In this document: piece by piece, positions 22,501 to 25,500 of the stretch | How the letters are laid out: each line of letters begins with the position of its first letter | Numbering within the stretch: the stretch's first letter is position 1 | Assembly (NCBI GenBank): GCA_034231615.1 | Contig: CM067307.1 | Span: 9,002,437-9,066,436 of the forward strand | DNA: 64,000 bases | Direction: 5' to 3' | From: Meghimatium bilineatum | Taxonomy: Eukaryota > Mollusca > Gastropoda > Stylommatophora > Philomycidae | Program-made: the position numbers and the translations under genes | Notes under the pieces: model-generated | Databases searched by the model: none | Told to the model about the DNA's origin: nothing | Seen by the model: the letters and a program-made list of their open reading frames with translations, nothing else

Positions 22501-25500
22501 TATCTTTGTGTATATTCATTAAAATCTGGTTGCAGGAAAGTTATACATTTAGAGGAATAAAATAATACACTTTGTTACTTGAATATCAGAGGATATCTGA
22601 CAAAATGGAGATTGCTGCAGTAACCAAATTAATAAGTAGAAAATACTAAATAAGGTAGAAAAGTTACTATAAAATCAATAAACCCGTAACCCTTCAGGGT
22701 TGTAGGGGTACCAAATTGGATGCCTCAGCACACAGAGTCCTCCAGCGAATTCTATCCTCAGCGATGCGGATGAGTGTGGAAAATACCTAACTACCAATAG
22801 TAAAAAATAAACAACTAACAATACAATATAGAACAAGGACAATTTTCTATATTGCAGTCCAATCCGAACCTTTTTCAAGAAACAAATAACAATCAAAATC
22901 ATAAAAATATTGACAACTAAAATGACTTGGACCTCAATGTAAGAAGTGATTGAGGTTCAAGTCATTCTAGTTGTTGCAACGGTTTTGCAAAACCACTATC
23001 CCCAGTTATCATTATGTCAACTTTCTCATCAGGTTTTAATGTTAAGTTCACTGATTCTGTGTTGATTTTTGTATCAACACTATGACACTATTTTATGATT
23101 TTGTGTTTTTGATTGTAATTTGTTTCTTGTAAAAGGTCCCGGTTTGACTGCAACGTAGAAAATTGTCCTTGATTTATATTTTTTTTTAAATTTTTTTATT
23201 TTTTTACTATTGTTAGTTACCGGTAGGTATTTTATAGTAACCTTTCTACTTTATTTAGTATTTCCTACTTTATTACTTTAGCAGCTCAACTCAACTGGGA
23301 GCGTGATGAAGATAATGTTGTCCACATTGTGTCTGACTGTGGCTAATGATTTATTATATATATGTGTGCCTGGAATTTTTTAACACATTCTGAACATATG
23401 TGGGAGGAGTCTGTGGGAAATTGAGCATCTCTTACCTTTCTTTTAGCATGTTTTGTTGTGCGGCATCGTGACTGCAGCTGCTTCATAACTCTTAATTCTG
23501 CAATGCCAGTTAGATCTATCTAATGCAAGACTCCCATGAATGTGTGTCTATGTTTAAGTCAGTTAGTGATGTCTTAACCCCTTGGCTGCAGCGGTATCCT
23601 TAAGGAGCTTTGAAAAGTTACTGCTATTTTGCAGACATCTCGTTAAGGAGTGCCGTTTCACGTGTTCGTATAATGTATTGCAGGGAGTAATTTAACAAGT
23701 TTGAATACTCTTAATGGCTAGTTTATTTTTTAAATTTATTTTTATTTTTATTATAAATTTATTATAATTTATTTTTATAATTAATCTTAATTATTAATAT
23801 CTAAACAAATTACAAACAAGTTAAAAATGAGAATTATAAAATGCTACATCTATTCCATATTAATGTATGGCTCAGAAACATGGACACTAAATAAACAATT
23901 AGAAGACAAAATTGATGCCTTTGAAATGTGGGTATATAGAAGAATAGGGAGAACATCATGGAAAGAGAAGAAAACAAATAAAGAGGTGCTAAAGACACTT
24001 AATATGAAGAAAGAACTACTAAGAGAAATAAAGATCAGGCAAATAAAATACTTTGGACACATTAAAAGACATGACACCCTTTTGAAGACCTTACTTGAGG
24101 GTAAAGTCAAAGGGAGGCGAGCAAGAGATAGGCAGAGATACAAGTGGGAGAGTAACATTACACGATGGACAGGTTACAGTCTAGCAGAGTGCACCACCAA
24201 GACAAGAGACAGGAGATGTTGGAGATACGTTGCAGCCAACCTTCGTTGCGGAGACGGCACTTGATGATGATGATGAATGGCTAGTTAAAGCTGTTACTCT
24301 TAATGACTAGTTAAAGCTGTTTAAAGGTTATTTAAAAATAGAGCTTTTGTAATTGGACATATAGATATAGACATGTTTCAAGTGAATGAAAGAAGAAGAA
24401 GTAATTGGACATGCTTGTAAGCATCATTTCTACTTAATGTGTCAACATAGCTGGATTTTCTGTGTTTAACCATCTTACTAGACCTACAAATCTGACAAAG
24501 TGTACACTCAATGAATTGGAAATGTATATAATTTTTCGGATAATTCTAGCTTTAATTTATCTAATGTAAGAAATGATCTAGAAAGTTTTAATTTGCATTG
24601 TGATACTAGTAACGATTTGGAGGATATAGATTCAGATGATATCTACAGCGCAAATATGATATGGTCTCAATTTTTTTTTGGGGGGGGGGGGGTGGCAATG
24701 ATGGTGTAAAAATTCACAACATTGATCAAGCAAATGTTTTGAGAAGCTTTGAATCTGTATCAGATGATACTATTATACAACATATTTGTGATGAGACAAA
24801 TAAATATGCTGACAAGCATATTACTTATAGCAAAAACATTGCGTCCAAAATAAAATGGATTATTATGATTATTTAAAAATTTTTTTTATTTCCTTTTGCG
24901 AGACGAATGTATATTAAAGTTTTTTACGTCTTATCTATAATATAAAGAAGCATTATGCTTGTAAATTAATAAATTAGAGTAAACAGTGATAATACACTAA
25001 AATTGTGAAACACGAGAATGTGCTTGGCAAATTGGTTTGACAGATTTATCCCTGAAGGCAAGGGATTAAGAGTGTCTTTAAAACATTTCTATCCTTTAGC
25101 CTAGTGGGAGCTAGTCATGTTTAGTCCCTGAAGAAAGGCATTCCAGTACTGAAGTATCCCCGGATCATCACATCCTGCCAAGAGCGCAGCATATACTGCA
25201 GGATTTTGTTTACAGTTGATTGGTTGTCAACCTATCCTCCAACTTTCCTTATATCAGGGTTTTCAATTGGCGGCCCCGCGGGCAAAATCCGGCCCACAGA
25301 GGCCTAGTCTGTGGCCTGAGGATCATTGCTAAAACAGTGAAATAAAGTTATAAAAACTAATTTTTTTTTATAAATCTGGCCTGTGATGATCCCCATTTTC
25401 TACATTTTGGCCCCAGAGTAAATATAATTGAATAGCCCTGCCTTAGATGCTCCCCCTACATTTCTAGAAAAAAGACATAAAGTTTATTCTTTGCACCTTG

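Follow-up and report, generated by a model that had tools for sequence, protein, structure and literature searches.

A piece of a KIF14 exon inside one arm of an inverted-repeat element in a ZMYND19 intron: a probable templated sequence insertion

The window, the whole 64-kb stretch of Meghimatium bilineatum DNA analysed here, contains KIF14 on the minus strand, ZMYND19 on the plus strand and, within a ZMYND19 intron, an inverted-repeat element that carries a short piece, or patch, of a KIF14 coding exon (Table 1). ZMYND19 was located by tblastn, with the human protein as the query. Six exon-like matches follow in order on the plus strand, four strong (E 6e-10 or better) and two weak, and the patched element sits between the third and the fourth. 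At 25690-25971, over a ZMYND19 exon, Pfam reports an HNH_3 match (E 3e-7, over the family cut-off). Pfam finds no domain in the 465-aa donor frame, and the name KIF14 is taken from its position, its strand and, at the end of the frame, what looks like the start of a kinesin motor. On that strand, the neighbouring exon-like frame at 8856-9341 carries a Pfam kinesin domain (E 8.3e-14), and the best match to it in PDB is KIF14 (E 7.9e-22). A 33-bp pair (29/33 identical, self-BLAST E 5e-4) has one copy beside this motor exon (8916-8948) and the other in the ZMYND19 intron (25492-25524). A literature search on ZMYND19, KIF14 and their synteny found nothing on the locus. Elsewhere in the window there are long minisatellites at 46372-47541, 2524-2923 and 12993-13654, with units of about 30, 35 and 180 bp, and a SINE-like repeat of about 155 bp occurs on both strands (30174-30332, 33259-33413, 34875-35030 and 44052-44211, with further copies at 59449-59607, 60612-60766 and 62717-62875).

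Table 1. Positions, in window coordinates, of the patch, its donor, the elements and the exons around them.
Feature	Position	Strand	Basis
KIF14 exon open frame holding the donor, 465 aa, 1398 bp	11244-12641	-	open frame; neighbouring motor exon identified
Donor segment within KIF14 coding exon (gene on -)	11516-11627	+	alignment, genome search
ZMYND19 exon-like match, weak, E 2e-4	16509-16574	+	tblastn
ZMYND19 exon-like match, weak, E 0.02	18132-18197	+	tblastn
E1, second, younger element of a related family, with 13-bp flanking duplication ACATGAATATGGC (18509, 19776)	18522-19775	.	
ZMYND19 exon 5' of the element-bearing intron, strong	21435-21554	+	tblastn
Left arm: tail-like lead (about 22586-22624) and terminal repeat, LINE insert inside	22586-22938	+	
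Left-arm insert, high-copy LINE-like 3' end, AAAAT on both sides	22676-22784	-	
Loop, 10 bases, between head-to-head arms	22939-22948	.	
Right arm, inner part	22949-22974	-	
Extra base T, left junction	22975	+	
Patch, copy of KIF14 exon 11516-11627	22976-23087	+	alignment, self-BLAST, genome search
C, right junction: added as filler, or an A of the recipient's CAA since changed to C	23088	+	
Right arm, outer part (outer limit approximate)	23089-23282	-	
ZMYND19 exon 3' of the element-bearing intron, strong	25711-25926	+	tblastn
ZMYND19 exon-like match, strong	31371-31472	+	tblastn
ZMYND19 exon-like match, strong	33960-34064	+	tblastn

The arms of the patched element pair around its loop, which gives the element a palindromic centre. 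For the 691-nt element the predicted fold reaches -242 kcal/mol, where 20 shuffles average -130, and places the patch outside the long duplex, where it pairs only locally. Pfam on the frames of the element returned nothing useful, and Rfam matches near it (MIR167-like and others) stayed far under their gathering scores. The best duplication in its flanks is 6 bp, at a chance of 78%, and is not recognisable as a target duplication. The arms of E1 differ from each other at 5 of 374 aligned bases and are 70-75% similar to the patched element. By eye, tail hairpins are present at 18536-18551 and 22588-22603, reading TCGGA..TCCGA and TCAGA..TCTGA respectively, a paired change. When the animal's own genome (1.61 Gb, 32 contigs) was searched, the E1 arm gave 1659 first-look candidates and at least 43 matches, with 40 long scored ones at 93-100%, while the left arm of the patched element gave 1755 candidates and at least 50 matches (its own included) at 79-100%; match counts in this search are lower bounds, very common words having been skipped. 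Because the window contains two related elements, and families of this size go with them, an origin of foldback and patch in one joint rearrangement was rejected.

Arms of the family come in pairs of inverted order, and one arm of a pair bears a lead about 60 bp long. At L034-L037, one arm matches from query position 1 and the other from 58-62, indicating a tail on one repeat; the Penelope-like tail in the literature is 30-40 bp. Among 13 distinct paired copies, eight have flanking duplications of 12-16 bp and the other five of 6-9 bp, the chance being 0.3% for at least 12 bp and 18% for at least 7 bp. An ORF of L034, which belongs to the E1 family and is not the patched element, matches GIY-YIG with E 1.7e-4 and 22.3 bits, under the Pfam cut-off of 22.6. 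The frames of L034 and L035 gave no Pfam reverse transcriptase match; L036 has one in another frame set, on the opposite strand, which may belong to a nested LINE. Rfam showed no hammerhead match up to E 1 in window positions 18300-23700 or in five loci, and the family ORFs examined include no transposase. Passages on the Penelope elements of Adineta describe the same anatomy, with inverted pLTRs, a tail, 9-10-bp duplications and palindromes at inverted junctions (PMC3846280). Because of the inverted arm pairs, the one-arm lead, the 12-16-bp duplications and the GIY-YIG match, albeit under cut-off, the host of the patch looks like a copy of a high-copy Penelope-like family and is probably not a Foldback element or a TIR DNA transposon. 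Several observations point the other way: the two same-family frames lack a reverse transcriptase match, no hammerhead turned up in the sequences scanned, the tail exceeds published lengths, and the patched copy shows no duplication that could be recognised. Membership among TIR DNA transposons or Pack-TIRs was rejected on this anatomy and on the lack of a transposase among the ORFs examined. Where the earlier note had spoken of a foldback, the element is better described as a member of a high-copy family whose anatomy is Penelope-like.

Comparison of the two arms confirmed what that note had seen, a right arm interrupted by the patch and a left arm that is continuous. Along the plus strand, the sequence of the right arm is CTAGTTGT-T-[patch]-C-TATTTTATG, whereas the complement of the left arm reads TTAGTTGTCAATATTTTTATG, and the family across the patch point, again as the complement of the plus strand, reads ATAAAAATATTG-ACAACTAGAATGACTTGG. 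The entry point of the patch and the centre of the inverted repeat are about 31 bp apart. Allowing up to 7 mismatches in 31 bases, a threshold at which 20 shuffled sites gave no hits, the uninterrupted site is found in 28 of 29 relatives' loci, at 36 places, L072 being too diverged. The element's own left arm holds it with one mismatch, and the right arm does not. In our reading of the alignment, 37 of 42 extracted arm pieces run through the site, one of them, in L058, entering it from a LINE insert 6 bases off; the other five (L050_3, L058_2, L076_2, L077_2 and L077_3) diverge before it. This LINE-like insert, at L058:1749-2181 and about 6 bases from the patch entry point, possibly marks a weak spot, or may be a coincidence within AT-rich DNA. 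The left arm and the relatives stand in for the empty site. Since they are uninterrupted, the patch is the derived state and the direction of copying is from KIF14 to the element, as had been proposed from the sequence.

Apart from point differences, one T and one C outside the patch are all that differs from the empty site. Zero to three recipient bases were lost. There is no poly-A at the patch and no target duplication above an ambiguous 3 bp. Microhomology amounts to at most 3 nt (CAA/TTG), and that if one later substitution is allowed; random junctions show at least 3 nt in 8% of cases and at least 2 in 21%, so the microhomology is not above chance.

The patch equals the donor segment on the same strand over 112 bp, with 106/112 identical bases, six substitutions and no gaps. 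The earlier note had reported exactly this match, and it is borne out by alignment and by self-BLAST of the window (E 3.7e-44). Among the 270 self-BLAST matches listed, patch and donor form the pair linking the KIF14 exon to the ZMYND19 intron. The other self-matches of this N-terminal exon come from its internal repeats at 11755-12248, which are diverged (66-71%) and code for repeated units rich in lysine and asparagine. The same note held that many dispersed copies would speak against a copying event. In the genome search, however, the patch as query returned two matches, itself at 100% and the donor at 95%, and the 1398-bp KIF14 open frame returned itself and the patch. With both queries pointing to two genomic places, on match counts that are lower bounds, a dispersed repeat acquired by KIF14 was rejected. 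Donor and patch are 11.5 kb apart on one chromosome, and donor, recipient and an internal empty site all lie in the window.

The left arm of the patched element has an insert of its own, of about 109 bp, which, like E1, had escaped the earlier note. It gave 1088 first-look candidates and at least 39 other genomic matches at 97-99% identity, and its other copies end in ATTG repeats. Its minus strand resembles the end of a LINE ORF. With its high copy number and 5-bp AAAAT flanks, it looks retroposed, in contrast to the patch. Among the loci examined, arm inserts of at least 30 bp occur at five other E2-family loci (L050, L053, L058, L077 and L078) and, doubtfully, at the E1-family locus L011. 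Those of the five E2-family loci match other window sequence, L053 at one place only, and look by these matches like common repeats; the L011 insert has no match in the window. For recurrent exon capture by the family, these five inserts are a weak negative.

All six differences between patch and donor are non-synonymous, as the earlier note had stated. This is true, but as evidence of drift it is uninformative, since 273 of 336 possible single changes (81%) would also be non-synonymous and six of six is expected with P 0.29. The frame of the patch remains open through all of its 38 codons, and stop codons in the flanking sequence delimit it. Neither the six changes nor the open frame tells of selection. 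Regarding age, the arms differ from each other at 30/205 positions and patch from donor at 6/112 (Fisher P 0.015), where the arm comparison counts two branches. Were patch and arms of equal age, 8.2 differences would be expected with a frozen donor (P(<=6) 0.29) and 16.4 with a donor changing freely (P 0.003). Against a family consensus, for which the best left-arm matches were used and which therefore leans towards that arm, the arms differ at 34/316 positions (left 13/154, right 21/162), compared with the 6/112 of the patch, donor changes included. The Poisson P is 0.045 pooled, 0.17 for the left arm alone and 0.010 for the right arm alone, and the one-sided Fisher test gives 0.062. On these counts, a patch younger than its element is suggested.

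Taken together, we consider it probable that the patch arose as a class 2-type templated insertion, made when a break was repaired with KIF14, 11.5 kb away, as the template. At the outset, the ZMYND19 intron would have contained an old Penelope-like copy whose two terminal repeats stood head to head. A break or stalled fork would have arisen in the right repeat, some 31 bp off the inverted-repeat centre. One end would then have been extended along 112 bases of the KIF14 exon, a donor on that very chromosome, before being joined to the other; the left side would have gained one base and the right side no more than one, with a loss of 3 bp at most. Hairpin fragility of the inverted repeat may have contributed, the predicted fold being strong, and a polymerase would have made the extension. 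The patch would since have drifted as intron sequence. The template could have been KIF14 DNA or KIF14 RNA, since a piece that lies within one exon fits both. Gap-filled captures show a cis bias, 56.9% of donors lying under 15 kb (PMC8277862), which agrees with the patch's donor, under 15 kb off on the same chromosome. Distant templated insertions at breaks in yeast repair mutants have median lengths of 88 and 187 bp, a range that includes 112 bp (PMC11724301). The short templated insertions frequent in Drosophila alternative end joining, with averages of 5-8 bases, are far shorter than the patch (PMC2895639).

It is possible, although we think it unlikely, that the patch was captured while the element inserted, by a reverse transcriptase that switched templates, from the element's RNA to that of KIF14 and then back again. 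Penelope elements are reported to capture host DNA, to self-prime and to leave palindromes at inverted junctions (PMC3846280), and the centre of the patched element is palindromic around a 10-base loop. The divergence of the patch also fits the age of the arms if only the patch has changed. Such a jump, however, must return to the same template within 0-3 bases, and the consensus comparison above, suggestive as it is, hints at a younger patch. Retroposition of the class 1 type, in which LINE machinery would have inserted a KIF14 mRNA copy truncated at both ends, appears very improbable. The lack of introns is uninformative for a piece within one exon, and LINE-like 3' ends are abundant here, yet both ends are internal to the exon, and the patch has neither the poly-A nor the target duplication of at least 5 bp by which class 1 is defined; the empty site by itself already argues against this reading. 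In preferring templated insertion to retroposition the earlier note holds up, whereas the break in a hairpin-prone arm that it added is plausible as an inference. An assembly artefact or chimera is scarcely credible given six scattered substitutions, sharp junctions and 1.61 Gb assembled in 32 contigs.

A function for the patch has hardly any probability in our judgement. Because KIF14 and ZMYND19 are divergent, the patch is antisense to KIF14 mRNA inside ZMYND19 pre-mRNA, and intron RNA would be complementary to that mRNA with a longest perfect run of 35 nt, beside the strong predicted hairpin. By sequence complementarity one could imagine, at equally long odds, the ZMYND19 intron as a natural antisense regulator whose hairpin-rich RNA would pair with KIF14 mRNA via 112 nt and couple the divergent neighbours. 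However, the same predicted fold leaves the patch outside the long duplex, and a lone drifting copy requires no function.

The probable templated insertion is of a mutation type already known; the recipient is unusual and the case clean. It offers an unusually clear templated insertion outside people and yeast, with the retroposed piece in the opposite arm as a contrast, and suggests that inverted-repeat Penelope-like copies, too, can undergo the gap-filling capture known from TIR DNA transposons. A literature search drawing on listings and passages brought up no account of a gene patch within a Penelope repeat arm. With class 2 templated sequence insertions (Onozawa and Aplan 2016, PMC5110952) the patch shares a short copy of an identifiable distant region, an intact donor, no target duplication (at least 5 bp), no poly-A and filler at the junction, here one extra T, with 0-3 bp lost as in end joining. 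Those insertions are described as human polymorphisms, whereas the patch is an older copy with six substitutions, a donor just 11.5 kb off and an inverted-repeat element as recipient. Single-copy Pack-TIRs formed by gap filling (Tan et al. 2021, PMC8277862) likewise have nearby host sequence inside an old transposable element, a tiny gap, no further copies and a cis bias. Their recipient, however, is a TIR DNA transposon, while here it is Penelope-like in anatomy, with a single repeat arm broken up by the patch. When Penelope elements capture host sequence (Arkhipova et al. 2013, PMC3846280), host DNA likewise comes to lie in a Penelope-type element with inverted terminal repeats, but between or next to the repeats, and in our case it lies inside one repeat of one copy.
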